DNA of 64,000 bases from Flavobacterium sp. Root901. Its GTDB lineage: Bacteria > Bacteroidota > Bacteroidia > Flavobacteriales > Flavobacteriaceae. Within the stretch, counting starts at the first letter, position 1. Each line of letters starts with the position of its first letter. Location: contig NZ_LMJB01000007.1 of the NCBI RefSeq assembly GCF_001429765.1, positions 122,780 through 186,779 on the forward strand, given 5' to 3'. Shown in pieces: positions 19,899 through 62,730 of the stretch. Both the position numbers and the translations under genes were made by a program. Under the pieces are notes generated by a model. That model had not been told where the DNA came from. It worked only from the letters and a program-made list of their open reading frames with translations, and did no database searches.

Positions 19899-19972
19899 GT
19901 AGAGACGCACTGCAGTGCGTCTAACATACAGTATGACATTTGGAACGTAGACGCACTGCGGTGCGTCTCTAC
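19899..19972. repeat. Inverted repeat, GAGACGCACTGCAGTGCGTC family (R8)
   Basis: Arms 19899-19923 and 19948-19972 are 25 bp each with one mismatch. Each arm is itself palindromic (GACGCACTGCAGTGCGTC), so it can form one long or two short hairpins. It fills the gap between the two GH2 genes. Confidence 0.85.
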
Positions 19973-20016
19973 AATGAAAATCTTTGCGACTCTGCGTCTT
20001 TGGGAGATTATTTTTT

Positions 20017-23000
20017 TTATTGAAACTCAAAATTATCGATCAACAACCCTTTCAAATCATCTCCTTCCAAAGTGATTTTATAAGTTCCCGCGTTGATATA
20101 ACCTCCTGATGTTGTGTTTAAAACCTTCCATTTTTCTGATGAAGGAAAGAATTCAATCGCATCGTTTCGCATTAAAATTCCGTACGCATCTTCCATTTTG
20201 AATTTTACTTTTAATGGCGTTTCATTTCGGTTCATAAAACGGAAACGCATTAAATAAATTCCGGCAACTCCGGGTTTTACTTCAAACTCAATGCTGTTAT
20301 TCGTTTTCTTCGTAAATTCGACATAATCAGCTTTTTTGAAATTGCCCTTTTCTATTCCTTCTCCGGTTGTTTTTGTTTTTTCTGCTTCGATGATTACGAC
20401 AGGTCTAGAATCGTCTTTTTCGCCCATATCGTACGTTGGAACGACTGCGATCGAAGTTGTTGTTTCTGAATTATCAAAAGCAACTTTCTCGCCTTTTTTT
20501 ACTTTTTTAGTAAAAACCTCAAAAGTAGTTCCAGCAATGTTTTTTGCTTTTTCTTCTATTTTTTTATAATCCGAAAGCAAGTTTAAAGATTTAATTTTAT
20601 TATCAACTAAAAAATAAATATTCGATTCTTCTTTTGCTGTAAACGAACCTGAACTTTTCGAATCTGTTGAAAACTGAATGAAATCAGCACCAAAAACTTC
20701 AGAAGGTAATTTGGTAAATTGAATTTCTGAGTTTACGAATTGTTTTGAATTGATATCCAGCCACGAAGCAATTTTAAAATCTCTGGAATCTAAACTTACA
20801 TTTTGAATATTTCTAGCCGATTCCTCAGCAGGTCTTGCGTGATAATCTTTTGTCGCGATAGCAATTGCCGAAATAATCGCTTGTCCGACTTTTACATTTG
20901 GAAACGAAATTTTAATTTTCCCTCCAACACTTTTTACTTTCAAGGTTTTCTTTAAAGCATTATCGTGTCCCGCTTCCGCCCAAATATCGAAATCTTTTAA
21001 AACCACATTATCGTTAACTGCCACATCAAACAAACGCCAGCCTTTGCAATCCATACCGCCGCCTGTTCCATACCACGGTTCTGTGAAATACAATTCAATT
21101 ACATATTCTCCATCCGGTGCAGGAAATTCATAACTTAATTTATCTACTCCGTATCTGAAAGTCTGAAATAAAGTTTGGTCTTTTGTTCCGTTTACGGGAT
21201 CAAAACTGCTTCTTTGGCTGGCAAAAAAGTCAGGAAGTTTTTCAAAATTATCTGTCCACGATAAAGAACCCCACGTATTTTTCCCGCTTTTGTGTGTATC
21301 GGTTAACCAAGTATTTCCGTTGCTATCTGTAAATTCTGAACCACCGCAATTTACTCTGTAAATGTAATTTAAACCACTTTTTGCTTTTAGAATATCGGTT
21401 TTATTTGGCGTTAAAGCTTCTAAATTCGGCGCTTTCGGAAGAGTATTCAAAACAATATAATCTTTGGCAACTGCTTTTCCGTTTACGTAACCAACGGCAA
21501 ATAAAACATTGTATTGAACGTTTACATTATTAAACTGAAAATGCTTGCCAATTCCCGGATTTTTTAGTTTTCCTAATGACATTTTATTGACATCATTAAA
21601 CAATTCGACTTCGTCACAATTCGAGTAAATATCGATTCCGTTTTTGATTCCTGCACTTTCCCAACGACTTGGCCAGGTATGCGAAACGATATATACCATC
21701 GGATTAGTTTTGTTCGAAACATAATTGGCGCGGTACATATAATACGCATCCAGCGGTTCGCCCCAAATGGTAAAAAGTCCTTTGTAATTTACGGGTCCGA
21801 CTTTGTCTATATCTCTAAATCCTTCCCCGTTTTGTACGCGTCCCGGATTTTCATGCGAAGCAAAAAGCCAGTTGAATTGTCCCGCAATTTTATCACGAAC
21901 CGATTCGGCCTCGCGGACTTTAATTTCCATTAATTGAGAAAAACGGTTTTCGCTCAACGTTCCTTTTTGGTCAAATTCGCCCTCGGTATGTAAATCTGCC
22001 GAACGCCACGCACCATATTCGCCGTTTAATAATTGCGTTGTCATTTCTAAATGATACTTTAACGGATCTCCGCCATAGGTTCCAGACCAGTTTTGCACGA
22101 CGTTCCAGTCTGTTCCTTCTCCTCCGTTGCAAGTTGTTACAATTCTCTGTTTATCGGATAACGGATCCATTTCACGAATGATTTTAGTGCATTCTTCGGC
22201 AAATGCTGCCGGAATTGTACTTTCATTCTGTAATCCCCACATTACAACTGAAGGACTGTTTCTGCGTTCTTTAATCCACTCGCGTAAAAGGGTTTTGAAA
22301 TTTTCTTTGAATTCAGGTGTGTCGTACCATATATGTGCCGAAAACTGACTCCAGAATAAGATTCCGTTTTCATCTAATGCTGCCTGATATAATAAATTAT
22401 GAGGTTGATGTGCTTCTCTAAAAGCATTAAATCCAGCCGTTTTAATTTGTTCAATTCTGGCATGAATTTGTTCGTCTGAAAACGCGTGACTATTCCCAAT
22501 CTGATGCTCATATTCGCAGACACCATTTATAAAAACTGGTTCATCATTAATAAAAAAACGATTGTCTTTTCCGTCACGACTCACCGGCCAGCTCACCCAA
22601 CGGATTCCGTAAGGCGTTGTTAGCTGATCAATTATTTTTCCGTTCTCATAAACTGAAGTTACCAGTTTATATAAATACGGATTGGATGGCGACCATAATT
22701 TCGGATTTTCAATTTCCGGAAGTGTTTGTGTTATTTCTTTTGTTTCTCCTGAAACGTTTTTGATGTCTGTTTTTTTGATCACAACTTTCTTTCCTGAAGC
22801 ATCAAAAAGAATATTTTCAATGGTTACATTTCGGTCTAAAGATCCGTAATTTTTGATTTCTGTTGTAGTATGAAGAATTGCTTTCTGTTTAGAAACCGAT
22901 TTATCATTCCAAATATGAACGCCAAAAGGCTCTATTCTGACATCGTTTGTAATGACTAAAGAAACAGGTCTGAAAATCCCCATTGGCTGTGAACCTTCTG

Positions 23001-23532
23001 AGAATCCCCATTCGCCCGAACAGCCACCGCAAACCCACGGAAGATCGGCAATAAAAGAGGGATGCGAGGCTTTTACTAAAATCTGATTTTCTTTATCGAA
23101 AGAAACTGCGTTGGTAATTTCTAAGGTAAAAGTCGTTCTTCCGCCTTTGTGCTGACCTACTTTTTTACCGTTTACCCAAACATCTGCATACGAACTTACG
23201 CCTTCAAAAAAAAGGAAGAGTTTTTTAGCAACCGCAGATTTATCAAGTTTTAAAGTTTTTTTGTACCAGGCTGTACCGTGTAAATTTCCATGTTTTGTTC
23301 TTCTGAAACCATAATACTGATCCCAATTGTGAGGCACACTTACCTTTTGCCAATTGGAATCAGTTTTTGGATTTTCTACAAAATCTTCTTCTTTCAGCGG
23401 AAGATTATCCAGCATTACGGTCTCCCAAGATGAATTCAGCGAAATTTCTTTACGTACTGAACTTTTGCCCTGACTCCAAACAGTGCAAAAACCTGAGAAA
23501 AAACAAAAAATAAAAAAAACTATTCTGTTCAT
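20017..23532 (-). CDS. Large GH2 enzyme with malectin and C-terminal carbohydrate-binding-like domains
   Basis: An 1171-residue exported protein (signal MNRIVFFIFCFFSGFCTVWSQ). Seen in order: GH2 jelly roll (VPHNWDQYYGF, GTAWYKK), an Ig-like domain, a TIM barrel with acid/base in MWGLQNES and nucleophile in LLNGEYGAW, a DUF4982-like strand region (CDEVELFND), a malectin domain (YRVNCGGSEFTDSNGNTW, about 690-860), and a C-terminal CBM6/35-like sandwich (IEAEKTKTTGEG, about 1040-1171). GH2 enzymes of this large type occur in rhamnogalacturonan loci of Bacteroides. The accessory domains suggest action on complex polymer or large oligosaccharide. The substrate linkage is not resolved. Confidence 0.88.
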   Translation of the reverse strand: MNRIVFFIFCFFSGFCTVWSQGKSSVRKEISLNSSWETVMLDNLPLKEEDFVENPKTDSNWQKVSVPHNWDQYYGFRRTKHGNLHGTAWYKKTLKLDKSAVAKKLFLFFEGVSSYADVWVNGKKVGQHKGGRTTFTLEITNAVSFDKENQILVKASHPSFIADLPWVCGGCSGEWGFSEGSQPMGIFRPVSLVITNDVRIEPFGVHIWNDKSVSKQKAILHTTTEIKNYGSLDRNVTIENILFDASGKKVVIKKTDIKNVSGETKEITQTLPEIENPKLWSPSNPYLYKLVTSVYENGKIIDQLTTPYGIRWVSWPVSRDGKDNRFFINDEPVFINGVCEYEHQIGNSHAFSDEQIHARIEQIKTAGFNAFREAHQPHNLLYQAALDENGILFWSQFSAHIWYDTPEFKENFKTLLREWIKERRNSPSVVMWGLQNESTIPAAFAEECTKIIREMDPLSDKQRIVTTCNGGEGTDWNVVQNWSGTYGGDPLKYHLEMTTQLLNGEYGAWRSADLHTEGEFDQKGTLSENRFSQLMEIKVREAESVRDKIAGQFNWLFASHENPGRVQNGEGFRDIDKVGPVNYKGLFTIWGEPLDAYYMYRANYVSNKTNPMVYIVSHTWPSRWESAGIKNGIDIYSNCDEVELFNDVNKMSLGKLKNPGIGKHFQFNNVNVQYNVLFAVGYVNGKAVAKDYIVLNTLPKAPNLEALTPNKTDILKAKSGLNYIYRVNCGGSEFTDSNGNTWLTDTHKSGKNTWGSLSWTDNFEKLPDFFASQRSSFDPVNGTKDQTLFQTFRYGVDKLSYEFPAPDGEYVIELYFTEPWYGTGGGMDCKGWRLFDVAVNDNVVLKDFDIWAEAGHDNALKKTLKVKSVGGKIKISFPNVKVGQAIISAIAIATKDYHARPAEESARNIQNVSLDSRDFKIASWLDINSKQFVNSEIQFTKLPSEVFGADFIQFSTDSKSSGSFTAKEESNIYFLVDNKIKSLNLLSDYKKIEEKAKNIAGTTFEVFTKKVKKGEKVAFDNSETTTSIAVVPTYDMGEKDDSRPVVIIEAEKTKTTGEGIEKGNFKKADYVEFTKKTNNSIEFEVKPGVAGIYLMRFRFMNRNETPLKVKFKMEDAYGILMRNDAIEFFPSSEKWKVLNTTSGGYINAGTYKITLEGDDLKGLLIDNFEFQ

Positions 23533-23550
23533 ATTTTTACCTTATTTCGT

Positions 23551-23633
23551 CCTGCAAGGTTTCCAAAACCTTGTAGGTCTGAATTTCGCAACGTTTAACT
23601 AAAACACCTACAAGGTTTTAGAAACCTTGCAGG
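23551..23633. repeat. Inverted repeat, CCTGCAAGGTTTCCAAAACC family (R5), copy 1
   Basis: Arms 23551-23578 and 23606-23633 are 28 bp each with one mismatch around a 27-bp core. A second copy with perfect arms lies at 44204-44290. Confidence 0.88.
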
Positions 23634-23660
23634 AGACGAAACGTTCTTGTAGGTCTGTTC

Positions 23661-23752
23661 GCGTGAGGGATGGCAGTGGAGCTCTTTTTTGAGGCAATTT
23701 TTCTTTGCCTCAAAAAAAGCGGGAACGTACAGCCCGACCCGGAGGGGCACGC
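23661..23752 (+). ncRNA. Structured RNA-like element, possibly Flavo-1 type
   Basis: Outer pairing GCGTG (23661-23665) with CACGC (23748-23752) encloses GAGGGAT, then a strong hairpin GAGGCAA/TTGCCTC with long T/A extensions (23681-23720), then GCCCGACCCGGAGGGGC. The layout resembles a multi-copy Bacteroidota intergenic RNA motif. I associate it with Flavo-1, but the name is from memory and was not searched. The plus-strand orientation is opposite to the PUL genes and is itself uncertain. Confidence 0.4.
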
Positions 23753-26496: not shown

Positions 26497-26541
26497 TGTA
26501 TTTTGGTTTTATTCTTGGCAATCAATATTTTTCATCCAGTT

Positions 26542-26644
26542 TGTCATTTCGACGAAGGAGAAATCTCCGCAAGTAACTCCAGAAAACTAAATCGACAATC
26601 TTTGACGAGCTTCTCGCGGAGATTTCTCGTTCCTCGGGATGACA
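26542..26644. repeat. Inverted repeat, TGTCATTTCGACGAAGGAG family (R3)
   Basis: Left arm 26542-26570 pairs with right arm 26616-26644, 29 bp with a few mismatches. The core has AGTAACTCC and CGAGCTTCT half-sites shared with the other R3 copies. Confidence 0.85.
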
Positions 26645-26663
26645 AAAAATGAGAATCTTTTTT

Positions 26664-26726
26664 TTGCCACAGATTAAAAGATTTTCACAGATTAAAAATC
26701 CTTTTAATCCTTTTAATCTGTGGCAA
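26664..26726. repeat. Inverted repeat, TTGCCACAGATTAAAAG family (R1)
   Basis: TTGCCACAGATTAAAAG (26664-26680) pairs with TTTTAATCTGTGGCAA (26711-26726). A second AATCCTTTTAATCC block lies inside. It directly follows an R3 element. Confidence 0.85.
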
Positions 26727-26739
26727 ATAATTTTATTTT

Positions 26740-27640: not shown

Positions 27641-27775
27641 TGCCACAGATTAAAAGATTAAAAAGGATTTTTTTTATCTCCATAATCTGCTAAATCTGCG
27701 AGAGTAAATTTTTTCACGCAGATTTGGCAGATCTAACAGATTTTTTAATCAGTGAAAATCCTTTAATCTGTGGCA
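27641..27775. repeat. Compound inverted repeat: R1 arms around an R2 element
   Basis: The R1 arm TGCCACAGATTAAAAG (from 27641) pairs with CTTTAATCTGTGGCA (27761-27775). Nested inside are TCTGCTAAATCTGCGAGAG and CACGCAGATTTGGCAGAT, which belong to the R2 family. Confidence 0.85.
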
Positions 27776-28989: not shown

Positions 28990-28997
28990 CAAAATTA
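28990..28997 (-). promoter_or_regulatory. Candidate internal promoter -7 element
   Basis: TAATTTTG on the minus strand matches TAnnTTTG about 60 bp before the sialidase-like gene start. A small palindrome AGTGT...ACACT (29007-29023 region) lies upstream, where the -33 region would be. Confidence 0.5.
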
Positions 28998-29035
28998 TTA
29001 GTTAAGTGTAAAAATGACACTAAAATTTTAAAGAT

Positions 29036-29053
29036 CTATCCTGTACTGTCCCG
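29036..29053 (-). promoter_or_regulatory. Tandem direct repeat, candidate activator site (copy 2)
   Basis: On the minus strand it reads CGGGACAGTACAGGATAG: two CRGGAYRG half-sites 10 bp apart, in the same orientation. It aligns without gaps to the site upstream of susC (61040-61057), 13 of 18 identical, and every difference is a transition. It lies 38 bp upstream of the candidate -7 element. Confidence 0.55.
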
Positions 29054-29071
29054 AATTAACTGAAAAGCGGA

Positions 29072-31822: not shown

Positions 31823-31838
31823 GGTATTGTTTATTTTT

Positions 31839-31937
31839 TCTCGCAGATTTTGCTGATTCCGGAGATTTTTTTTCTGCCACAGATTTCTCAGATTAAAAAT
31901 GGATTTTTTATCTGCTTAATTTGCCAAATCTGCTAGA
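31839..31937. repeat. Inverted repeat, CTCGCAGATTT family (R2), with R1 half-sites
   Basis: TCTCGCAGATTTTGCTGATT (from 31839) faces AATTTGCCAAATCTGCTAGA (ending about 31937). A diverged GCCACAGATT piece lies in the core. Confidence 0.75.
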
Positions 31938-31957
31938 GTATATTGATTCTCATTTTG

Positions 31958-32054
31958 TGTCATTTCGACGGAGGAGAAATCTCCGCGAGTAGCTCGTCAT
32001 GCTTGAGCAACTTTGTAGAGTTTCTTACGGAGATTTCTCCTCCGTCGAAATGAC
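31958..32054. repeat. Inverted repeat R3, copy 2
   Basis: TGTCATTTCGACGGAGGAGA from 31958 faces its complement ending at 32054. Arms of about 28 bp are nearly perfect. The core contains AGTAGCTCG and AGAGTTTCTTA. Confidence 0.88.
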
Positions 32055-32080
32055 AAACTGGTCGGTTATCGTTGCGCATT

Positions 32081-32113
32081 AAACCTGACAGGTTTTAAAA
32101 ACCTGTCAGGTTT
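32081..32113. repeat. Palindrome AAACCTGACAGG / CCTGTCAGGTTT
   Basis: The perfect stem AAACCTGACAGGTTTT / AAAACCTGTCAGGTTT occupies 33 bp and forms a strong hairpin. It resembles a short relative of R5. Confidence 0.8.
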
Positions 32114-32155
32114 AAACATCAAAATATCTAGATTACTCCATAACAATAATTTAAA

Positions 32156-32202
32156 CTCTGTCGAGCTTCTCGCTAAGATTTCTCCTTCGTCGAAATGACA
32201 AA
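32156..32202. repeat. Solo half of an R3 element
   Basis: TCTGTCGAGCTTCTCGCTAA followed by the right arm ending CGAAATGACAAA occurs without a matching left arm. It looks like a decayed or one-sided copy. Confidence 0.75.
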
Positions 32203-33795: not shown

Positions 33796-33819
33796 TTATT
33801 TTATTTTTCTACACAATCT

Positions 33820-33922
33820 TGTCATTTCGACGAAGGAGAAATCTTCATGAGTAACTCCGTAAAAGTGAATCGCCAATCTTTGTCGAGCTTCTAACGGAGA
33901 TTTCTCCTTCGTCGAAATGACA
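33820..33922. repeat. Inverted repeat R3, copy 3
   Basis: TGTCATTTCGACGAAGGAGA from 33820 faces the perfect complement ending at 33922. The core carries AGTAACTCC ... CGAGCTTCT in the orientation opposite to copy 2. Confidence 0.9.
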
Positions 33923-33943
33923 AATATGGAGTTTATTTAATCT

Positions 33944-36410: not shown

Positions 36411-36629
36411 TGCCACAAATTACACGAATGGACACTAATTTTTTTTTAATTTTTATTTCAATTCTCTAATTTATTTTTGCCACAAATTAAAATGATTAGA
36501 AGGATTTTTTATCTCCTAAATCTGCCAAATCTGCGAGAGTAAATTTTTCCCCGCAGATTTAGCAGATTTTTATAATCAGTGAAAATCATCTAATCTGTGG
36601 CAAAAACAATTAGTGCAATTCGTGTAATT
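36411..36629. repeat. R7 element split by an inserted R1/R2 element
   Basis: The R7 left arm TGCCACAAATTACACGAATG at 36411-36440 and right arm AATTAGTGCAATTCGTGTAA at 36608-36629 flank a complete R1 element (36478-36602). This looks like an insertion of one element into another. Confidence 0.78.
36478..36602. repeat. R1 element with nested R2, inside R7
   Basis: TTGCCACAAATTAAAATGAT faces ATCATCTAATCTGTGGCAA. Inside are TCTGCCAAATCTGCGAGAG and CCGCAGATTTAGCAGAT. Confidence 0.8.
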
Positions 36630-36661
36630 GCTTCACCTGTTCGCTATCGCTCGGGTCGTGG

Positions 36662-38080: not shown

Positions 38081-38102
38081 TTTAATATCGGTATGATTGG
38101 TA

Positions 38103-38218
38103 CGCTGATGACACGGATTCGCTATCGCGAAGACGCTGATTTACACGGATTTTTTATATTTTGAAAAAAAATCCGCTTTTATCCGCGTTTTTACGAAGTA
38201 AATCCGTGTCATCCGCGT
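38103..38218. repeat. Inverted repeat, GATGACACGGATT family (R6), copy 1
   Basis: CGCTGATGACACGGATT with the inner palindrome TTCGCTATCGCGAA on the left faces AAATCCGTGTCATCCGCG with TTTACGAAGTAAA on the right. It fills the whole gap between esterase and GH78. Confidence 0.88.
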
Positions 38219-41140: not shown

Positions 41141-41153
41141 TTCTTTATTTTTT

Positions 41154-43098: not shown

Positions 43099-43113
43099 TG
43101 TTTTTTATTTTTT

Positions 43114-43170: not shown

Positions 43171-43194
43171 TTTGGAGATTTTTTTATTTTTTTT

Positions 43195-44192: not shown

Positions 44193-44203
44193 TCTTTCTC
44201 TTT

Positions 44204-44290
44204 CCTGCAAGGTTTCCAAAACCTTGTAGGTATATTTTTTTACGTTGATGTTAAACTTAAACACCTACAAGGTTTTGGAAACCTTGCAGG
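44204..44290. repeat. Inverted repeat R5, copy 2 (perfect 28-bp arms)
   Basis: Arms 44204-44231 and 44263-44290 are perfectly complementary around a 31-bp core, and the arm sequence matches the copy at 23551. Confidence 0.92.
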
Positions 44291-44307
44291 AGTGCAAAAC
44301 AGCTGAA

Positions 44308-44340
44308 ATCTTTGTCAAAGTTTAAAACTTTGACAAAGAT
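44308..44340. repeat. Perfect 33-bp palindrome (CTTTGTCAAAG family, R9)
   Basis: ATCTTTGTCAAAGTTT / AAACTTTGACAAAGAT with one central base. Relatives are at 11084-11109 and 11704-11736. Confidence 0.88.
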
Positions 44341-44354: not shown

Positions 44355-45923
44355 TTACTCTATAATTGCTTTTTTATCTAAGTCTTTTCCTTTTTTAATC
44401 GGAGTCGAAACGTTATTAAAAACATTATTTTTTACAAATACATTTTTCGTTTCTTTTCCTTCAGCTTCAATAAAAATATCGGTTGCATTAAAGGGAAAAC
44501 TATTATTAATCATTAAATTAGAAACATTATTCAGTTTAATAACCGGAACTGCTTTTATTGGAGTCGATGAACCAACATTATCCAGAATCAGGTTTTTAGA
44601 ATCTGAAATTTTGAAAGAAGAACCAACTGAAGCATTCACTTTTACATCATGAAATTCAACATCTGTCGCGGTATTAACTTCAAAACCTTCTTTTCCGTCG
44701 ATGTTGATATTTGAAAATGAAATGTTCTGAACCGGCATTTCTGCAATTCCTAAAATGGCTCCGGCTTTATTGACATTTGATCCCGTGATATTACTCATAT
44801 GGATGTTTCTGAAAATCGGCGTTTTCTCTGTTACAGGTTCTTGTTTGGTGTCTTTATCATAGAAAAGACTCAACACAAAAGCTTCTTCTTTGATATTTTT
44901 CATGACAATATTATCGACACGAATATCTTCTACAACTCCGCCTCTTCCACGAGCTGATTTGATTCTGATTCCGCGATCGGTTCCGTCGAAAACACAATTT
45001 GAAATCGTGATTTTTTTGATTCCGCCCGACATTTCACTTCCAATAACGACTCCGCCGTGACCGCTTAACATCGTGCAGTTTGTGATCGTAACATTTTCTG
45101 TTGCAACTCCATATTTTCGTCCGTCGGCGTCTCTTCCGGATTTGATCGTAATACAGTCATCTCCAACACTAATATGGCAATTTGAAATGTGAACGTTTTT
45201 ACAAGAAGAAGGATTGATTCCGTCTGTATTTGGTGAATGTGGATTAAATATTGTAATTCCTGTTATCGTTACATTATCACAAAATTCCGGATTGATCGTC
45301 CAGAAAGGAGAATTTTGAAATGTAACGCCTTCAATCAAAATATTTTTACAATTTAAAACCTGAAAGAATGATGGTCTGAAAAACTTTTTATCCATTGTTC
45401 TTTTATAGTAAGGCTCGTAAACCATTCCCGGATTTTGCTCGCCCCACATTTTTTGGTATTTCGTTTCCGGAATCGGGCCTTTTGCAGATTCTATTCGGTA
45501 CACTTCATTCCACCATGCTTTTCCTTGTCCGTCGATTACGCCTCTTCCTTTTATAGTGATATTTTCGGCATCTTTTGCATAGAATAATGGTGAGAAAGTT
45601 TTCATCATTAATCCTTCATAACGCATTTCTACGAAAGGCAGATAATCATCAAAATTCTCTGAAAATTTTAAAAGCGCACCCGAATCTAAGTGAATTGTAA
45701 TGTTGCTTTTTAGTTTTAAAGCTCCGGTTAAATATTCTCCGGCAGGGAAAAAAATTGTTCCTCCGCCATTTTTTGATGCTTTTTCAATAGCATTCTGAAT
45801 GGCTTCGGTGCATTTTATTCCTTTGTTATTGCCTCCTTCGTTCAGGATATTCAGCCAACCGTTATTCGCGAAAGCGGTGTTTAGTCCAAGTGTGAAGCAG
45901 AGTATGATTAGTATGTTTTTCAT
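44355..45923 (-). CDS. GH28 polygalacturonase-like enzyme
   Basis: About 522 residues from ATG 45923, which gives the signal MKNILIILCFTLGLNTAFA. A GTG 69 bp upstream lies in a repeat and is unlikely. The right-handed beta-helix carries the four GH28 signatures: PNTDGINP, GDDCITIKSG (catalytic Asp pair), GHGGVVIGSEMSGG and RGIRIKSARGRGG. The ~520-residue length and the FFPAGEYLTGALKLKSN leader match exo-acting bacterial members. It cleaves alpha-1,4-galacturonosyl (or rhamnogalacturonosyl) bonds of the pectin backbone. Endo or exo mode is not certain. Confidence 0.92.
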   Translation of the reverse strand: MKNILIILCFTLGLNTAFANNGWLNILNEGGNNKGIKCTEAIQNAIEKASKNGGGTIFFPAGEYLTGALKLKSNITIHLDSGALLKFSENFDDYLPFVEMRYEGLMMKTFSPLFYAKDAENITIKGRGVIDGQGKAWWNEVYRIESAKGPIPETKYQKMWGEQNPGMVYEPYYKRTMDKKFFRPSFFQVLNCKNILIEGVTFQNSPFWTINPEFCDNVTITGITIFNPHSPNTDGINPSSCKNVHISNCHISVGDDCITIKSGRDADGRKYGVATENVTITNCTMLSGHGGVVIGSEMSGGIKKITISNCVFDGTDRGIRIKSARGRGGVVEDIRVDNIVMKNIKEEAFVLSLFYDKDTKQEPVTEKTPIFRNIHMSNITGSNVNKAGAILGIAEMPVQNISFSNINIDGKEGFEVNTATDVEFHDVKVNASVGSSFKISDSKNLILDNVGSSTPIKAVPVIKLNNVSNLMINNSFPFNATDIFIEAEGKETKNVFVKNNVFNNVSTPIKKGKDLDKKAIIE

Positions 45924-45941
45924 TGTTGTGTTGTTTTTTTG

Positions 45942-46039
45942 CTCTCGCAGATTTAGCAGATTGTGCAGGATTTTTTTTGCTACAGATTTCACAGATTAAA
46001 ATGATTTTTTATCTGCTTGATCTGCAAAATCTGCGAGAG
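45942..46039. repeat. Inverted repeat R2
   Basis: CTCTCGCAGATTTAGCAGAT from 45942 faces ATCTGCAAAATCTGCGAGAG ending 46039, with a TACAGATTTCACAGATTAAA stretch in the core. Confidence 0.88.
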
Positions 46040-46058
46040 TATTTTTTATTCTCATTTT

Positions 46059-46145
46059 TGTCACCCTGAGTGAAGTCGAAGGGCGCATGCTATATCAAGC
46101 ATTGTGTCCAATTTTTGCGGTTCTTCGACTTCGCTCAGCATGACA
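46059..46145. repeat. Inverted repeat, CCTGAGTGAAGTCGAAGG family (R4)
   Basis: TGTCACCCTGAGTGAAGTCG faces CGACTTCGCTCAGCATGACA ending 46145. Confidence 0.88.
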
Positions 46146-46155
46146 AAGATTGCGA

Positions 46156-47556: not shown

Positions 47557-47590
47557 TTTTGGTTTATTTTGGAATTATATTTTTTTTGTT

Positions 47591-47814
47591 TGCCACGAAT
47601 TGCACTAATTTCTCTAATTTTTTTTCTCTGTTTGTCTTTATTTTTTCACGCTGATTTGAGCAGATTTTAGCTGATTTGCGCAGATTCTATTTTAAAAATC
47701 TGTTTGATCTGCTTTTATCTTTTTAAATCTGCGTGAAATTTTACTCTCGCAGATTTGGCAGATTGAGCAGGTTTTATTTTAATTAATTCGTGCCATTCGT
47801 GTAATTCGTGGCAA
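47591..47814. repeat. R7 element split by an inner inverted repeat and half an R2
   Basis: R7 arms TTGCCACGAATTGCACTAAT (from 47590) and CATTCGTGTAATTCGTGGCA (ending 47813) enclose a 47646-47736 inverted repeat (TCACGCTGATTT / AAATCTGCGTGA) and a half R2 (CTCTCGCAGATTTGGCAGAT, from 47744). Confidence 0.8.
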
Positions 47815-47824
47815 ACCTTTCTCA

Positions 47825-50968: not shown

Positions 50969-51022
50969 TTTTTAATTATTTTAGATTTAGATTTTCTAAA
51001 GTTAAGTATTTCCTCAATTTTA

Positions 51023-51121
51023 TCATCCTGAGCGAAGTCGAAGGACACGTTAGTAGCTCGACAATCTGAATCAAACTTTGCGGAGTTTCTTGCGTGTCCT
51101 TCGACTTCGCTCAGGATGACA
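51023..51121. repeat. Inverted repeat R4, copy 2
   Basis: TCATCCTGAGCGAAGTCGAA from 51023 faces TTCGACTTCGCTCAGGATGA ending 51120-51121. The core AGTAGCTCG ... GGAGTTTCTTG matches the R3 cores. Confidence 0.9.
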
Positions 51122-51151
51122 AACTTTGTCGATATACTTTCGTTATGTAAA

Positions 51152-52858: not shown

Positions 52859-52905
52859 GAATTGTGGTTGTCTCGTTAATAGTTATTAGTGTAAGTTTCG
52901 AGAGA

Positions 52906-53619: not shown

Positions 53620-53680
53620 CTGCTTGATCTCCCAAATCTGCAGGAAAATTTACTCTCGCAGATTTAGCAGATTTAGGAGA
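53620..53680. repeat. Inverted repeat R2, diverged copy
   Basis: CTGCTTGATCTCCCAAATCT faces CTCGCAGATTTAGCAGATTT; the arms are partly mismatched. It lies between the first PL1 and DUF3826. Confidence 0.75.
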
Positions 53681-53690
53681 TTTTTTTTAA

Positions 53691-55430: not shown

Positions 55431-55460
55431 TCACCTGTATCTGGAATAGAATACAGGTGA
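55431..55460 (-). terminator. Intercistronic hairpin after susD (attenuator or processing site)
   Basis: A perfect 10-bp stem TCACCTGTAT / ATACAGGTGA with a 10-nt loop is followed on the minus strand by TTTGTTT. It lies between susD and the first PL1. A weak terminator here would keep SusCD transcript above enzyme transcript. Confidence 0.6.
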
Positions 55461-55519: not shown

Positions 55520-57487
55520 TTATTCCTGATAATTGTAATCACCTGTTCCACCAGAAGCATCGCTCCATCCTATGGTTTGTTTCAACCAAGGATTTTGGGT
55601 AAGAACTGCAGTCTGTAATCCCATAATATAATAATTAGGATTAAATTTAATTTTAACCGTTGCATTATTAACGTTATCCATTGGTGTTGGAGGTGCTACA
55701 AGAATGAAATTATCGTTATAGAAAGTAGCTAATGCTGCCAACTGTGTCTGGAAATTAGCAGAATCCGGATCTGCTGAAATATTTCCACGAACTGCTGCCA
55801 ACGGATCTGAAGATGTTGCTGTATTTTTATACTGAAGATAATTACCTGTTCTTTGTGTTCCGTTAATTGGCGTTAAACCTAATTTACTTACAGTACCGCC
55901 TGTCGTGCTTGGAAGTGTTGCGTTATCATAAAGCATCCATCTTTGTACGTCCCAGTAACGTTTTCCTTCGTATGCTAATTCAACTCTGCGCTCGTATAAA
56001 ACAGCTTCGATAGCAGCGTATTTATCTGCTAGTGTTCCAATTCCATAATTATTAGCTGACGGAATACCTACACGATTTCTAATTCTTCCTAAATAAGCAA
56101 CAGCATTTCCTGTTTGTCCTAATGCTGCGTAACATTCTGCAATGTTTAGCAATAATTCTGCATAACGATATTCCATGATATCATTTCCTGAATATTGAAA
56201 ACTACTGGCATTTGTAGCAGTAACATCGGTCATCTTTCTTACTAATGCCGGGCTTGTTTCGTTATTTGAGTCACTGTAATATGCTTTTTTTGAAGCATCT
56301 AACCAGCGATATGCCCAAACAACTGGTTTAGCGCTTTCTTTATAATCCCATTTTACTCCTGAAAAAGCAAATGTTCTGTAAAATCTTGGATCACGATTAA
56401 CGAAGAAAGTAAAGTTATCATATCCGTTTGCAGTTGTAGGTCTTGCACCATTTGCCATTGGAAACAAATCAATCATTTCTTTTGGAGCTTCCAAAGCGCC
56501 TGTACCTCCCTGGCTGATTAAACGAATTCCTTTTTCCCAGGAATTATTCATTCCAAGATTGGTTGTATTTGTTCCTAAAAGCTGAACTGTAATAGCCTCA
56601 GAACAAAATGCATTGTTTCCAAGTGCAAACATATTCTGCCAGTCTTTAGCAGAATTTCCGTATAAGCCATAACCAGCTCCTGATAATTCTGTTTCTGCTG
56701 CTAATCCTGCTTGCAATGCTGCATTCCAGCGCTCATTTGAACTATCCCAGCTTTTATTAAATAATGGACTTGCATAAGTTAATAAAACTCTCGATTTTAC
56801 TGCTAAAGCGGCACCTTTTGTAACACGTCCGTAATCTGCAGAATTCCAGTTTCTTGGCAGTAAACTTGCTGCCATATCTAAATCTTTTACTATTTGAGCC
56901 ACAACTTCAGTTACAGTTGCTCTTGGTAATTTAATAGCTTCATTGTCTGTACTTGGAGTCTGGATTTCTGTTACAATTGGTACACCTCCGTATACACGCA
57001 TTAAATCAAAATACTGAACAGCTCGCAGGTAATATAACTGTCCTTTTGCCTGATCGCGGAAAGTTTTGTCTAAACTTGCTCCTTTAACATCAATATCAGC
57101 AATGAAAGCGTTACAATCCCTAATTCTGTTATAAGGAACATTATTGATTTTATCTTCAAGTTTACCTCCGTAATATCCAGATGCATCTGCAGCATTTGTA
57201 TAGGTAAGTGTTGGGTTAATAAGAGGCTGAATACCCCCTATTTCTTCAGTCATTTTTGAATATACATCTGAATAAGAACCTACTAAAGTTTGTCCGGGAG
57301 ATTTATATGCAGAAAAATAATCAAAATAAACATTATTGATATAAGCTGTAGCGCGTTCCTGACTTTCGTAAAACGAATCGTCTACACTTCCATAGTTTTT
57401 CTTTTCTTCTAAAAAACTATCGCTGCAAGAAGTACTAAGCACTGCAAGAAGTGCTATAGTTATATATTTATTAATTTTTAGTTTCAT
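55520..57487 (-). CDS. susD: SusD/RagB-family surface glycan-binding lipoprotein
   Basis: A 655-residue protein. The lipobox LSTSC puts Cys at about residue 21. SusD family features are SFLEEKKNYGSVDDSFYES near the mature N-terminus, RDCNAFIADI, GQLYYLRAVQYFDLMRVYGGVPIV (TPR region) and YRYAELLLNIAECYAALGQTGNAVAYLGRIRNRVGI towards the C-terminus. SusD caps the SusC transporter on the outer face and captures oligosaccharides. It follows susC by 18 bp, so it is cotranscribed. The locus context suggests pectic oligosaccharides as ligand. Confidence 0.95.
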   Translation of the reverse strand: MKLKINKYITIALLAVLSTSCSDSFLEEKKNYGSVDDSFYESQERATAYINNVYFDYFSAYKSPGQTLVGSYSDVYSKMTEEIGGIQPLINPTLTYTNAADASGYYGGKLEDKINNVPYNRIRDCNAFIADIDVKGASLDKTFRDQAKGQLYYLRAVQYFDLMRVYGGVPIVTEIQTPSTDNEAIKLPRATVTEVVAQIVKDLDMAASLLPRNWNSADYGRVTKGAALAVKSRVLLTYASPLFNKSWDSSNERWNAALQAGLAAETELSGAGYGLYGNSAKDWQNMFALGNNAFCSEAITVQLLGTNTTNLGMNNSWEKGIRLISQGGTGALEAPKEMIDLFPMANGARPTTANGYDNFTFFVNRDPRFYRTFAFSGVKWDYKESAKPVVWAYRWLDASKKAYYSDSNNETSPALVRKMTDVTATNASSFQYSGNDIMEYRYAELLLNIAECYAALGQTGNAVAYLGRIRNRVGIPSANNYGIGTLADKYAAIEAVLYERRVELAYEGKRYWDVQRWMLYDNATLPSTTGGTVSKLGLTPINGTQRTGNYLQYKNTATSSDPLAAVRGNISADPDSANFQTQLAALATFYNDNFILVAPPTPMDNVNNATVKIKFNPNYYIMGLQTAVLTQNPWLKQTIGWSDASGGTGDYNYQE

Positions 57488-57505
57488 CTTCTTATTGAGT
57501 TAAAA

Positions 57506-60500
57506 TTAGAATGTAATATTTAAAGTAACAGCCCAAGTTCTAAGCGTTGGATAATTCTCAGAAGAACTATCGTACATATTACGGTAATGATCCGGATATG
57601 GGTTATATAAATCCCAAAGGTTATTACCTGTTACACCAACTGACCATTTTGAAATTTTAATTTTATCTAAAAGATCTTTTGGTAAATCAAATCCTAATGT
57701 AAGGTTTCTAACTGTACATCTAAATGTATCTAACTGCCAGAAATCAGATGGTACTGCAATATAATCCTGATTTGCCAAGTTAGGGTATCTTCCGTCAACG
57801 TTATCATCAGCATACATATCATTCCAGAAAGTTTCACGTCCCCACATATTATGTGTTGATGAAGTTCCTTGTTTTACAACATCTATTGCACGGTATCCTC
57901 CCCAAGATGTTGCGATCTGAGTTTTTAAGAAGAATGATTTATATCTTGCGCCTAAATTAGTTGTAAATCCGTATGTTCTGTTTCTGTTTACCAATTTTAC
58001 GTAATCCTCATTTTTAGTAATTTGTCCGTTAGGTCCTGCCTGAGAACCATCTGTACTGTTAAACTGTCCGGCAACATCTTCATAAGCAAGCATTCCTTTT
58101 CTCATGTTTGAAACGTTTGAAATCCCCATGTAGTTTGGATTAACACCAGCTGCTGTAGCACGTTCTGTAAGGTATGACCAGTAATTTGCCACATCTTCAT
58201 CTGTACGCAAAATACCATCTCCTGTAGAAGTTCCTTTCCATGTTCTGAATCCCCATTGTGGGAAAAATAAAGAGCGTCCTGCTTCTGTTAAATTGTTTGA
58301 AGGATGCATTAAAGCTGGTTCCGGGAATTTTTTAACTTCATTGTCAGATAAACCAAAGTTTACACCAATGTTATAGTTAAAGTTTTTATTTACATTATCT
58401 TTCCATGTTACACTAACCTCAGTTCCCCAGGAATCTACTGCTGCATAATTTTCTTCGGCAAAACCACCTCCTACAGAGATTGGAACTCCAACTGCTCCGG
58501 CCATCCCGGTCAGCATGTCTTTAGATTTATCATAATAGAAATCTGTTGTAATAGATAATCTGTTTCTTAATAACGTTAAGTCAAAACCTAAGTTATTTTT
58601 GATTGTTGTATCCCAGCCTACATTTCTGTTTGGCTCCACTCTTGGTGTAATACCGTTTCCTAATACTCCTCCGTTAGATCCAAACTGGAATCCTTTATCT
58701 GCAATAACATCATAAAGTTTCATCCATCTCCATGCATTGATATTGTCGTTTCCTGTTTTACCAATAGAGTAACGAATTTTAAAGAAATCTATGAAAGAGA
58801 TGTTATTAGTAAACCATTTTTCTTTAGAAACAATCCATCCTGCCTGAAGCGATGGAAAGAATCCCCAGTAGTTTTCTGGAGCAAATTTTGTTGAGGCATC
58901 ACTTCTAAAAAGAAACTGAAGCATATATCTAGATTTGTAGCTGTAATTAATACGTCCTAAATAAGATAGAGTTCCCTGTTCTCCTTTTAATGCAGTTGAG
59001 TTAGTACTTAAAGTTCCGGCAGTCTGATAAGATCCTCCATAATCCTTTCCTGTATTTTCAAAAGCTAAACGTGTGCTTTTAAATTCTGATTCTGAACGCT
59101 CTACAGAAAACATTGCTCCAACTTCATGATTATCAAATGTTCTGTTATAATCTGCAAAGAAGTTAGCCTGAATAGATTTAGAAAAATTACTATCATAATA
59201 AACTCTTGAATTACGAACATTTGTTTCAATAACATAATAGTTATCTACACCATTATTTTGAGTAGTTGGTAATGCTGCACTCGCTAAGTGACCGTCTAAT
59301 TTTTCATAACCCATAATTCTGGCTAAGTCATAAGGCAGCTGAACTTGTTCAGTACTTGAAGAAGTCTGGCTTCTTGAGTACGTTCCTTTAAGAGATAAAC
59401 CTTTTATAAATGGAACTTTATAATTTAACGACATATTTACGTTATAAGAAAAGTCATTTGAAGTTTGCTTAGAGCCATTGTTTATGGCCGCAAAATAATT
59501 CCATCCTGCAATTGTGTTATTTGCATTTGCAGATCCTAAAGTACGATCTGTTCTTGGAAATGGAGACATATAATATTCCTGACCATTAACTGTAGTCTCC
59601 CATGGAATATATTTTGGCATGTGAAGCAAAAATCCGTAATCTGCCTGTTCACCACCTGCAGCAGAACCGTAACTGCTGTCATTAATATTGGCAGACGCTT
59701 TAGTAAATGATTTTTCGATATCACCGGAATTACCAGAAACAGCCGCAGAAAAATCTAACGAGTTATTGATTTTTGCTGTCATCCCTGTACGGAAATTCCA
59801 TTTGTTGTAATCTTGTCTTCCTAAATTTGCTCCTTGTGTAAAGTAGTTAATACCTGCAAAATAGGTTGCTTTTTCAGTTCCTCCACTTACACTTAAAGTA
59901 TGTTTTTGCTGAATTGCCGGTTTCCACGCTTCTTTTAACCAGTCATAATCAAGATCTCTCATTTCATTTAACTCCGTATCTGTAAAAAGATTTGATCCGT
60001 TAGTACCAATATTATTTGAGCCTTTGAAAAATCTGTTTGAGAAAACACCATAATCATAAGCAGACATCGTTTTACTATGACTTACAGCATCATTTACTGC
60101 AAACTGGCTAAAATATGAAAATGTTGGCACACCGCTTTTTCCTCTTTTTGTTTTAATTACGATTGCTCCCTGAGACGCACGAGAACCATATATAGCCGCA
60201 GACGCATCTTTTAAAACTGTCATGCTTTCAATCTCAGAAGGATCTAATCTGTTAAATGCATCCAATGACGGTCTCCCGTTAATTGGGTCAACCTGAATCA
60301 TATCATCGATAATGATTAAAGGAGTTTTTGAACTTCCATCTTTTGAAAAGCCATATGTCTGACGAATTTCAAGTGAAGAAGCATCACCGGGACGACCTCC
60401 TCCATCGATTACACTTAATCCGGGAACTTGTCCTCTTAATGCTTCTGATAAGTTAGAAACCGGAAGTTCCTGAATATCTGATGCATTTATTGTAGCAATT

Positions 60501-60874
60501 GCTCCGGTAAGTTTTTCCTTTTTCTGACTTCCGTATCCTACTACAACTATATTCTGTAATTCGTTTGAGTCTTCTGTTAATTTCACATTTACTGTAGTAC
60601 GTGTTCCAACTGCTACTTCTTGCTTTCTCATTCCTATAAAAGAAAAAACTAAAGTTGCATTTGGTTTTACTTTAATTTGGTACTGACCATTAAAATCAGT
60701 TGTAACTGTATTTTTTGAAGATTTCTCAGTTACGTTTACCCCTGGAAGCAGACCAGATACATTATCAGTCACAGTTCCTGTTACTGTTACCAGATTTGAA
60801 TTTTGAGCATAACTCATCACAGTCATCAGTGTAAACAAAAGAAAACTACATCTCTTTAAAAGTGCTTGTTTCAT
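57506..60874 (-). CDS. susC: SusC/RagA-family TonB-dependent transporter
   Basis: A 1122-residue outer-membrane protein with signal peptide (ends MSYAQ, about residue 24). It has a carboxypeptidase-D-like beta domain (VTVTGTVTDNVSGLLPGVNV), a TonB-box region (LQNIVVVGYGSQKKEKLTGA), a plug (ALRGQVPGLSVIDGGGRPG, IIIDDMIQVDP, VLKDASAAIYGSRASQGAIVIKTKRGK) and a 22-strand barrel ending in ...VTLNITF. It imports bound oligosaccharides at the cost of the proton-motive force via TonB. It is the first gene of the main PUL transcript, with promoter and regulatory sites just upstream. It is the only SusC in the window. Confidence 0.96.
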   Translation of the reverse strand: MKQALLKRCSFLLFTLMTVMSYAQNSNLVTVTGTVTDNVSGLLPGVNVTEKSSKNTVTTDFNGQYQIKVKPNATLVFSFIGMRKQEVAVGTRTTVNVKLTEDSNELQNIVVVGYGSQKKEKLTGAIATINASDIQELPVSNLSEALRGQVPGLSVIDGGGRPGDASSLEIRQTYGFSKDGSSKTPLIIIDDMIQVDPINGRPSLDAFNRLDPSEIESMTVLKDASAAIYGSRASQGAIVIKTKRGKSGVPTFSYFSQFAVNDAVSHSKTMSAYDYGVFSNRFFKGSNNIGTNGSNLFTDTELNEMRDLDYDWLKEAWKPAIQQKHTLSVSGGTEKATYFAGINYFTQGANLGRQDYNKWNFRTGMTAKINNSLDFSAAVSGNSGDIEKSFTKASANINDSSYGSAAGGEQADYGFLLHMPKYIPWETTVNGQEYYMSPFPRTDRTLGSANANNTIAGWNYFAAINNGSKQTSNDFSYNVNMSLNYKVPFIKGLSLKGTYSRSQTSSSTEQVQLPYDLARIMGYEKLDGHLASAALPTTQNNGVDNYYVIETNVRNSRVYYDSNFSKSIQANFFADYNRTFDNHEVGAMFSVERSESEFKSTRLAFENTGKDYGGSYQTAGTLSTNSTALKGEQGTLSYLGRINYSYKSRYMLQFLFRSDASTKFAPENYWGFFPSLQAGWIVSKEKWFTNNISFIDFFKIRYSIGKTGNDNINAWRWMKLYDVIADKGFQFGSNGGVLGNGITPRVEPNRNVGWDTTIKNNLGFDLTLLRNRLSITTDFYYDKSKDMLTGMAGAVGVPISVGGGFAEENYAAVDSWGTEVSVTWKDNVNKNFNYNIGVNFGLSDNEVKKFPEPALMHPSNNLTEAGRSLFFPQWGFRTWKGTSTGDGILRTDEDVANYWSYLTERATAAGVNPNYMGISNVSNMRKGMLAYEDVAGQFNSTDGSQAGPNGQITKNEDYVKLVNRNRTYGFTTNLGARYKSFFLKTQIATSWGGYRAIDVVKQGTSSTHNMWGRETFWNDMYADDNVDGRYPNLANQDYIAVPSDFWQLDTFRCTVRNLTLGFDLPKDLLDKIKISKWSVGVTGNNLWDLYNPYPDHYRNMYDSSSENYPTLRTWAVTLNITF

Positions 60875-61012
60875 AAATGTTTTTTGTTTTTTGGTTAGGT
60901 ATTAGTGTTAGTTTAGTCATGTTAAATGTGATTTATTTTAATCGTATTAAAATTTAAAAAAAACTTTAATCAAACTTAAATTAAATGTTAAAAACACATT
61001 TATTTTGTATTC

Positions 61013-61020
61013 CAAAAATA
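61013..61020 (-). promoter_or_regulatory. Candidate susC promoter -7 element
   Basis: TATTTTTG on the minus strand matches TAnnTTTG. The tandem direct repeat starts 19 bp upstream of it, where a class II activator would bind. An alternative TAAGTTTG lies closer to the gene at 60971-60978. Confidence 0.5.
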
Positions 61021-61039
61021 TAACGATGACGAATTAGAA

Positions 61040-61057
61040 CCGTCCTGTGCTATCCTG
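61040..61057 (-). promoter_or_regulatory. Tandem direct repeat, candidate activator site (copy 1, susC)
   Basis: The minus strand reads CAGGATAGCACAGGACGG: two CRGGAYRG half-sites with a 10-bp period. The same pattern precedes the internal sialidase-like gene (29036-29053). Confidence 0.58.
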
Positions 61058-61295
61058 CTTTGATAGGATTATCTAAAAAAAACTAACTCAAAAAAACAAT
61101 ATTAATAAAAAAAAGAAAGAAAAAATGGACGAAACAGAAAAAACGAGCAATAAGTTTGAACATAATAAAATAGAAGTTCTTCTTTTAAAACGAAAACGAA
61201 AGAATTAGCATTAAAAATAATTATTCTCTGTTTTTTATGCAAAATTTGACAGTGAAACACTGTACTTTAATGAGTTAAGTTTAGCCTGTAAATAC

Positions 61296-61334
61296 AAAAA
61301 ATGACTCCTCCTTTTTACAGAAAAGTCATTTTTT
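61296..61334 (-). terminator. Terminator downstream of the CE8 gene
   Basis: An 11-bp stem AAAAAATGACT / AGTCATTTTTT with a 17-nt loop and a T run in either direction lies about 200 bp after the CE8 stop. It separates the CE8/GH127 unit from susC. Confidence 0.75.
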
Positions 61335-61355
61335 AAAGTATTAATCTTACAACAT

Positions 61356-61367
61356 GAAAACGTTTTC
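61356..61367. promoter_or_regulatory. GAAAACGTTTTC palindrome, LacI-family operator-like
   Basis: A perfect 12-bp palindrome with central CG fits the operator style of LacI/GalR regulators. A further half-site GAAAACG is at 61192-61198. It lies between the CE8 stop and its terminator, so any control would act on susC from a distance or on an unrecognised transcript. Confidence 0.4.
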
Positions 61368-61540
61368 GCTTTACAAAACATTCCTTAAATTTTTACTAAA
61401 AAAATATTTTTTTTAAACGTAAAATCTGACCAATATTCTTTTACAAAAGCTTTTTTCAGCGGTATTAAATGAGAATTAAATGTTTTTTAGTTAGTAATAC
61501 TGCTGTAAGAGCAGTTTGCATTTGAAAATAGCTTTAGAAA

Positions 61541-62524: not shown

Positions 62525-62544
62525 AGTTTCTTATTTATTGATTT

Positions 62545-62644
62545 TGTCATCTTGACGAAGGAAAGATCACACTAGAAATTCCGCAATCTTAATCGTCAAT
62601 CTTTGTCGAGTTACGCGTGTGATTCTTCGTTCCTCAGAATGACA
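62545..62644. repeat. Inverted repeat R3, diverged copy
   Basis: TGTCATCTTGACGAAGGAAA faces TTCTTCGTTCCTCAGAATGA ending 62644; the arms differ in the AGATCACAC part. Confidence 0.8.
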
Positions 62645-62680
62645 AACTGTACGGTTATTAACAGACATTTAAAAAATAAA

Positions 62681-62730
62681 AAATCCGTTTTCATCCGCGT
62701 CTTTACGAAGTAAATCCGTTTCATCCGCGT
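62681..62730. repeat. Partial R6 element
   Basis: AAATCCGTTTTCATCCGCGT then TTTACGAAGTAAATCCGTTT and CATCCGCGT: only one side of the R6 element is present. Confidence 0.75.

Follow-up and report, generated by a model that had tools for sequence, protein, structure and literature searches.

Palindromic repeats of many dispersed families occupy the spacers of a polysaccharide utilization operon in Flavobacterium

Palindromes between co-directional genes are known from Escherichia coli, where repetitive extragenic palindromic (REP) elements lie between cistrons, close behind stop codons, and where each genome generally has one REP superfamily. REP doublets (REPINs, or bacterial interspersed mosaic elements, BIMEs) and their transposases (TnpAREP, or REP-associated tyrosine transposases, RAYTs) have already been described, as have miniature inverted-repeat transposable elements (MITEs), which are short, non-coding, dispersed and nested inverted repeats. 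We analysed a stretch of 64,000 nucleotides from Flavobacterium sp. Root901 (contig NZ_LMJB01000007.1, positions 122,780 to 186,779; hereafter the window), in which a polysaccharide utilization locus (PUL) shares with E. coli the palindromes between co-directional genes and close behind stops, and differs from it in having 11 families in one operon, varying between species. We give a probability of roughly 0.55 to the explanation that the spacers of this operon were built by a ratchet from several unrelated dispersed palindromic families. The elements look more like interchangeable genomic passengers than like fixed control signals.

The host is a soil-type Flavobacterium with a genome of 4.99 Mb in 12 contigs, the window being on contig C7. 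All genes that we take as real from position 17,421 to the right end of the window are on the minus strand, a common direction which suggests one 43-kb transcript for the PUL. Pfam domains reveal two GH2, two GH78 rhamnosidases, GH95, GH28, a GH43-like protein, a BT_1020-like protein (whose closest named relatives are from Flavobacterium), an apiosidase and DUF6298, together with SusD, a TonB-dependent SusC-type receptor, a pectinesterase and GH127. The enzyme set resembles that of rhamnogalacturonan-II (RG-II) utilization loci, and we take the operon as one for the degradation of pectin. Genes were called as the longest open reading frame (ORF) with an ATG, GTG or TTG start, which leaves some 5' ends over-long and shortens some of the spacers, whatever the group. 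Reading every gap between 17,288 and 62,739, we found palindromic elements of dispersed families in 16 of 22, which amounts to about 31 elements of 11 families when nested and one-armed copies are included (Table 1). An earlier sequence-only reading of this DNA had claimed that palindromes fill nearly every gap of the PUL, which our inventory confirms; its estimates of about 24 elements and about eight families were right in substance and too low in number. Two more gaps contain other hairpins (AT-rich at 17,337-17,388, terminator-like at 55,431-55,460), and four have no element at all (28,993-29,071; 52,859-52,905; 57,488-57,505, between SusD and SusC; and 60,875-61,540, upstream of SusC).

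The PUL is strongly enriched in these elements relative to the rest of the genome. We used as background 1.2 Mb of the same genome, in sixty 20-kb stretches spaced evenly along it, so that densities are sample-based, and some of these stretches contain SusD genes. An ungapped detector of inverted repeats (arm score of at least 14, loops of up to 100, gaps of 30-1500 bp), which misses gapped elements, identified 16 of them in 14 of 21 PUL gaps (3.8 per kb of gap) versus 144 in 137 of 679 gaps of the sample (1.1 per kb), and the difference is significant when only the same-direction gaps of the sample are considered (93 of 466; Fisher p 8.5e-6). A chance origin of the inverted repeats was rejected, with dinucleotide shuffles of the whole 1.2-Mb sample expecting 0.7. 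We then computed the z-score of RNA folding for same-direction spacers, with 16 shuffles each, in 30 of the 60 stretches, leaving aside spacers below 40 or above 300 bp (above 450 bp in the window) and comparing only those flanked by both expected genes. Values below -4 were found in 18 of 20 PUL spacers (median -7.7) and in 48 of 186 sample spacers (median -2.1; Fisher p 2.3e-8). The greater length of PUL spacers fails to explain this enrichment, because in the 100-200-nt bin the proportions are 10/10 and 23/73. The pattern density of each of the families F1 to F10 (described below) is also higher in the PUL than in the 1.2-Mb sample, with two further F10 matches in the left 17 kb of the window. 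The latter had been described as holding only a few elements, and the ungapped detector indeed finds one in eight gaps; yet this part is not empty, since three of five tested spacers have z < -4, and related elements were read in the gaps 5,832-6,161, 11,063-11,165 and 11,649-11,770. Among these elements outside the PUL, one has a CATAGAAACATAG-type word, and there are also CTTTGTCAAAGT palindromes.

We compared this PUL with a targeted set of 20 stretches of the same genome (0.371 Mb), 17 with a SusD match and the other three near PULs; one of them (L111) adjoins the right end of the window and supplies 3 of the 20 targeted spacers with z < -6. The ungapped detector found 36 inverted repeats in 35 of their 151 gaps, close to the background of 137/679, and the fold test gave z < -4 in 37 of 84 spacers (median -3.6), fewer than in the PUL (Fisher p 1.4e-4) and more than in the sample (Fisher p 0.0024). 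Any enrichment in other PUL stretches is moderate at best, and shows in the fold test and not with the ungapped detector. Since the targeted set is intermediate by one measure and background-like by the other, this PUL is the extreme of the stretches sampled, and an equally strong feature of all PULs was rejected. The sequence-only reading had named an equal density in all intergenic regions as the outcome that would speak against it; the density is unequal, and high in this PUL.

The families fall into two classes. Class A comprises doublets or long hairpins with arms that are mostly 83-97% complementary: F1 GTAGAGACGCACTGC, F2 CAAGGTTTCCAAAACCTTG, F3 GTCATTTCGACGAAGGAGAAATC, F4 CTGAGCGAAGTCGAAG, F9 CCTGACAGGTTT and, in relatives only, F11 CTCCAGCTAAAGCTGGAG. 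In class B each arm is a series of degenerate words with a period of 9-10 bp: F5 CACAGATT, F6 GCAGATTT, F7 ACACGGATT and F8 CACGAATT, with words in relatives that include TTAGTGATTAG or GAATATAGAAAATAG. F10 is a short palindrome placed in neither class. The autocorrelation of arms in spacers with class B only (n=184) exceeds that of shuffles, with peaks at lag 9 (+0.074) and lag 10 (+0.031); in spacers with class A only (n=72) the largest excess is +0.029, at lag 18. Elements nest within each other, and the order F8 > F5 > F6 of the triple nest at 36,419-36,661 was also read in four relatives (L118, L120, L122 and L124). We found no match of the iterated-word palindromes of class B to any described family in our searches of the open-licence literature. 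A pattern scan for the F5 word pair CACAGATTNCACAGATT matched 26 of 296 genomes of the phylum and 12 of 139 genera, and the reversed control had no match. The arms of F7 elements, in the window (38,102-38,218 and 41,021-41,142) and in relatives, carry the small palindromes TTTACTTCGTAAA, TTCGCTATCGCGAA and TTCGCTTTAGCGAA at facing positions, and their assignment to arms varies by copy. One F8 arm includes a stretch of about 27 bp (GCTTC.CCTGTTCGCTATCGCTCGGGT type) at about 36,630-36,656, and similar stretches occur within the arms of other elements in relatives (L121, L122, L129 and others). The 562-bp spacer between the BT1020 and GH43 genes in L202 consists of several near-identical F6-type copies in tandem.

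A part of the genus has the DUF6298 protein of the PUL, which was found in 26 of 150 Flavobacterium genomes, and in 68 of 398 in a larger, overlapping draw. We compared 40 orthologous 20-kb regions of congeners, where the gene order is kept, bar isolated cases of a gene called as split, missing or as a small addition, and the absence of two genes in L132. The spacers of the first 20 relatives are almost as structured as those of the window, with z < -4 in 131 of 178, whereas random stretches from four of the genomes gave 35 of 106. An inverted repeat was detected by the ungapped method in 98 of 191 spacers (window and first 20 relatives), and each of the four genomes exceeds its own baseline (6/8 vs 9/41, 4/9 vs 5/38, 3/8 vs 4/28 and 6/10 vs 9/36). 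The elements present at a given junction often differ between species. E.g., the junction between the CE and GH78b genes is occupied by F7 or by F11, depending on the species, and in L116 and L130 F11 is nested in F7. Motif typing shows many combinations of families at each junction, spacers at one junction are mostly unalignable end to end between species, and alignment clustering separates the spacers of 37-41 species into 18-33 alleles at each junction. Even at a coding identity of 91% or more, 19-84% of the spacer pairs can hardly be aligned, the share varying from one junction to another. L224 and L226, with 96.5% identity in BT1020 DNA, differ in family at four of the five junctions, and at the fifth both have F3, in different subtypes with a common flank; L235 and L236 (95.8%) have some elements in common and differ in others. 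This suggests that the replacement of spacers can be fast, whether elements are inserted and deleted, spacers pass from species to species, or both. The junction between u51152 and DUF3826 has both empty and filled states, in species that are too distant to fix the insertion points, and 20 of 40 species have none of the typed families there. Larger genomes tend weakly to have longer spacers on average (rho 0.39, p 0.012; 41 genomes, uncorrected for kinship).

The same junctions are compact in most relatives outside the genus. We collected 11 such loci, from Leeuwenhoekiella, Aestuariibaculum, Neptunitalea, Mariniflexile, Wenyingzhuangia, Tamlana, Sinomicrobium and metagenome-assembled genomes (MAGs); the loci L204-L283 used in this comparison partly overlap the other set of relatives (e.g., L204/G008 and L266/G092), and the two are not independent. 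The BT1020 and GH78b genes are separated by 1 bp in 10 of 10 loci, GH78b and CE by 0-19 bp in 10 of 10, GH43 and BT1020 by 0-11 bp in 7 of 10, GH28 and GH43 by 0-6 bp in 6 of 9, and the apiosidase and GH28 by 3-13 bp in 8 of 9, i.e., 41 of 48 junctions are at 0-19 bp. In four of these loci the BT1020/GH78b junction reads as a stop codon, one base and a TTG start. The exceptions are from Aestuariibaculum (L272 and L273) and from a MAG (L276); their open junctions hold other repeat families, and the six open spacers tested there have fold z-scores from -1.6 to -8.4. In the Flavobacterium group, which includes three records without that title (L226, L230 and L254), junction medians are 78.5-161.5 bp, 6/64, 10/64, 8/68, 2/67 and 16/68 loci have junctions of at most 20 bp, and z < -4 was found in 33/52, 50/58 and 41/65 spacers of three junctions. 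The compact state also occurs within the genus, in a MAG of 3.0 Mb (L132/L266) where five of six measured junctions are at most 18 bp, and BT1020/GH78b is a stop codon, one base and ATG. Because genes nearly abut in most relatives outside the genus, the spacers of this operon are essentially the elements themselves.

F1 is the family that best resembles a described mobile element. It shares with REP doublets and TnpAREP of subclass 2.4 a GTAG foot, a hairpin, an inverted pair, dispersed copies, and copies in the frame of a Y1 gene. Its GT[AG]G foot lies at the hairpin, with GTAGAGACGCACTGCAGTGCGTCT at 19,899 and the inverted partner ending at 19,972. The motif is dispersed, having 14 matches in the 1.2-Mb sample and 4 in the 0.371 Mb of targeted stretches, distributed over 10 of 80 stretches. 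The sequence-only reading reported no mobilising transposase in the window, in agreement with our Pfam scans of 33 of the 39 ORFs of at least 120 aa (the other six overlap a scanned opposite-strand gene). Elsewhere in the genome, the search for REP-associated transposases that it had proposed returned four Y1 (IS200/REP-type) genes. One of them, L004 (G000:C6:675720-678917), has a 305-aa open frame at 1420-2337 on the plus strand with a weak Y1_Tnp domain (26.6 bits), and four F1 motif matches in frame, read without a stop, with none in the flanks. PMC6006769 describes REP copies inside the reading frame of the transposase for TnpAREP subclass 2.4, which abounds in Bacteroidetes and in Cyanobacteria; the GTAG families listed in the first part of the results of PMC3733652 do not include Bacteroidetes. 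F1 thus appears, as far as tested, to belong to the REP doublets, and L004 is its likely cognate transposase, with a putative role in its mobilisation. The three other Y1 genes (L001, L002 and L003) are flanked by REP families of their own (GTCCCTACGGGAC, CTGGACTTCAGTCCAG and a CCACGGG type), none of whose patterns has a match in the PUL. The remaining families differ from the REP/TnpAREP systems: only F1 fits, no transposase was linked to the others here, and the PUL is a hotspot of several families. F2, F3, F4 and F9 have no match in the 400-bp flanks of the 33 best-scoring Y1 loci of the genus, and 6 of these 33 loci have only single F5, F6 or F8 words beside them. The class B families (F5-F8) have neither a GT[AG]G foot nor, among these loci, a cognate transposase; their ends are GCCAC...GTGGC, CTCTCGCAG... 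or ACGC.... The view that the elements are REP- or MITE-like mobile units, raised from the sequence alone, has gained support, since the families are dispersed, nested and often replaced at fixed junctions, and the corresponding sites outside the genus are mostly 0-19 bp.

These observations can be accommodated by a ratchet. The ancestor would have had most of the genes of the operon nearly abutting, and an insertion just behind a stop codon would have opened a junction. Once open, the spacer could receive more insertions, many of them within the loop of the palindrome already there, which would produce the nests. It would tolerate them more easily because it is presumably promoter-free and needs only a ribosome-binding site. 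Slippage, central deletions and exchange between species, including swaps of whole spacers, would reshuffle the contents, and F1 would probably spread as a REP doublet by means of a Y1 transposase like those of TnpAREP subclass 2.4. We infer from this pattern gain rather than loss of spacers, the lack of internal promoters, the ratchet itself and its near-neutrality. The absence of elements from the SusC-SusD junction and from the presumed promoter region upstream of SusC counts in its favour. A number of points weigh against it. The polarity is drawn from the distribution of compact loci, and not from a rooted tree, and ORFs called too long may account for part of the shortness of the tightest spacers. 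The recurrence of palindromes at most congener junctions is more regular than pure drift need give. The divergence of spacers between species stands without neutral control spacers from the same species, and turnover is not always fast, because the closest pair (L242 and L243, 97.3%) keeps the same elements at most junctions, one of which differs by a stretch of 186 bp. The families F2-F9 could be linked to no transposase, since none of the 33 Y1 loci mentioned above has two or more matches of any one of them in its 400-bp flanks. Finally, no target-site duplication was shown for any element, nor a parent transposon with matching ends, and in this, as in the degenerate word repeats at the ends of class B, the elements depart from the MITEs that they resemble in being short, non-coding, dispersed and nested inverted repeats.

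The spacers could also be explained by selection for intercistronic hairpins, where a palindrome behind each stop codon would act on the mRNA by blocking 3'-to-5' decay, by setting processing ends, or by stalling the terminating ribosome and thereby lowering expression, and where any family would serve. This fits the position of the elements in 118 structured spacers, at a median of 8 nt after the stop codon and 18 nt before the called start, and the excess of structured spacers at congener junctions over random stretches. However, a spacer consisting almost entirely of an element would place that element equally close to the stop codon. The gene order is kept in the MAG L132/L266 and in most relatives outside the genus although their spacers are few or absent, in some congeners junctions are empty or the genes nearly abut, and half of the 40 species lack typed families at u51152/DUF3826. 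We regard such selection as possible and rather unlikely; a role of the elements in the processing or stability of the mRNA, which the sequence-only reading had offered as a way to set enzyme stoichiometry, is in itself possible. A tentative extension, which we find unlikely, is that each junction needs a palindrome behind its stop codon and no particular one. Selection would then keep the hairpin and let its sequence change, unrelated mobile families would act as interchangeable parts uncoupling genes that were once back to back, and the iterated-word class would be a distinct, undescribed dispersed element that provides a large share of them. Some F2 elements recall intrinsic transcription terminators, having weak T tails, and it would be very surprising if this were what the elements are. 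A scan for the terminator consensus, with loops of 3-8 nt only, in the region 16,500-56,300 gave no more sites than shuffles (13 vs 16.7, sd 4.2, and 14 vs 15.4, sd 4.1), and the sites on the transcript strand outside genes are only two F2 elements (23,633-23,607 and 44,290-44,264) and 55,460-55,431 behind SusD; an identity of the elements as terminators was rejected on this basis.

Recombination could be the main process, if the PUL were exchanged among Flavobacterium species in such a way that old spacer alleles are shuffled and new insertions are rare. The sharing of alleles is in fact incongruent with the coding tree: those common to at least two species require, over ten junctions together, 110 changes where 57 would be the minimum, on a FastTree phylogeny of six partial genes, which may themselves recombine. 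The differences between L224 and L226, at 96.5% identity, point in the same direction. Yet 8-29 of the 18-33 alleles per junction are singletons, over half being private to one species at most junctions, and both the nesting and the filled junctions beside compact relatives require insertion at some time, which makes recombination improbable as the main explanation. Class B palindromes, for their part, might form at the site itself, through slippage and hairpin-primed template switching, and not by transposition; PMC8794818 reports that template switching creates and maintains stems. Their arms are iterated 9-10-bp words, the number of words may differ on one arm only or a central deletion be present (L224/L238 and L235/L236), and the same junction may have one pair of words (L134) or many (L118). 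An origin in place is nevertheless doubtful, given that the ends and words of F5, F6, F7 and F8 recur at many loci within a genome and in different species, which points to dispersal.

We found no description, in our searches of the open-licence literature, of a single operon filled by many families, of their replacement junction by junction, or of a compact state outside the genus, and nothing matching there on inverted repeats or MITEs of Flavobacterium, on palindromes in PULs, on intercistronic mRNA stability in PULs, or on RG-II PULs of Flavobacterium; among the papers listed on ribosome stalling at REPs, none had the phrase 'REP elements'. This syntenic operon offers compact and variously filled states of the same junction in species with proteins that are mostly 75-97% identical, and thus makes it testable whether palindromic repeats between the genes of an operon are tolerated debris or working parts of the mRNA. 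It also calls for caution: without a check for repeats, a long spacer in a PUL should not be taken as regulatory, nor a match to the Rfam family Flavo-1 (RF01705) as a specific small RNA. One element of the window exceeds the curated cut-off of that family, and the genome has at least 33 matches, at least 28 of them over the cut-off, among the 150 of 1369 candidates that were scored. Because of these 33 matches the Flavo-1 'sRNA' looks like a dispersed repeat, and behaves as one in this genome. Other known structured RNAs were rejected, the seven further Rfam matches being to miRNA models below their cut-offs, taken as chance hairpins. The iterated-word palindromes merit a name.

Table 1. Coordinates of the PUL and of the elements in its gaps (positions of the window).
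Feature	Position	Strand	Remarks
Host gene cluster	17,421-63,951	-	same-strand run of predicted genes; Pfam domains
F1 GTAG-footed REP doublet	19,899-19,972		arms 25 nt, 96% complementary; F1 motif also in frame of Y1 gene L004
F2 doublet	23,550-23,634		arms 29 nt, 97% complementary; terminator-like, weak T tail at 23,633-23,607 (-)
Rfam Flavo-1 element (RF01705)	23,653-23,743	+ (opposite to genes)	51.6 bits, cut-off 42
F3 hairpin (GTCATTTCGACG...)	26,540-26,646
F5 iterated-word palindrome (TTTGCCACAGATT...)	26,663-26,727
F5 with nested F6 palindrome	27,641-27,775		F6 at 27,685-27,732
Mixed F6/F5 iterated-word element	31,837-31,938
F3 hairpin	31,958-32,055
F9 palindrome AAACCTGACAGGTTT	32,079-32,115
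One-armed F3 copy	32,160-32,200
F3 hairpin	33,819-33,923
Triple nest F8 > F5 > F6	36,419-36,661		F5 at 36,471-36,609; F6 at 36,518-36,569
F7 iterated-word palindrome	38,102-38,218		mini-palindromes within arms
F7 iterated-word palindrome	41,021-41,142
F8 iterated-word palindrome (GCCACGAATT...)	41,155-41,229
F6 iterated-word palindrome	43,113-43,179
F5 iterated-word palindrome	43,195-43,267
F2 doublet	44,203-44,291		overlaps over-long 5' end of called ORF 43,275-44,264
F10 palindrome CTTTGTCAAAGTTT	44,310-44,338
F6 palindrome	45,942-46,039		overlaps called 5' end of ORF 44,355-45,992
F4 hairpin (CTGAGTGAAGTCGAAG)	46,054-46,150
F8 enclosing F6 palindrome and one-armed F6	47,589-47,815		F6 at 47,644-47,738; one-armed F6 at 47,744-47,771
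F4 hairpin	51,016-51,126		arms 49 nt, 84% complementary
F6 iterated-word palindrome	53,620-53,681
SusD gene	55,520-57,487	-	Pfam
SusC-type receptor gene	57,506-60,874	-	Pfam
F3-like hairpin	62,542-62,646
One-sided F7 element	62,678-62,730

The terminator-like hairpin directly behind SusD is on the transcript strand, and partial termination at this site could lower the expression of the downstream enzymes. The listed GTG starts of the ORFs 43,275-44,264 and 44,355-45,992 lie inside or beside palindromes (F2 and F6, respectively), and their orthologs in most relatives are called shorter; for these reasons, the true starts of both genes are probably downstream.

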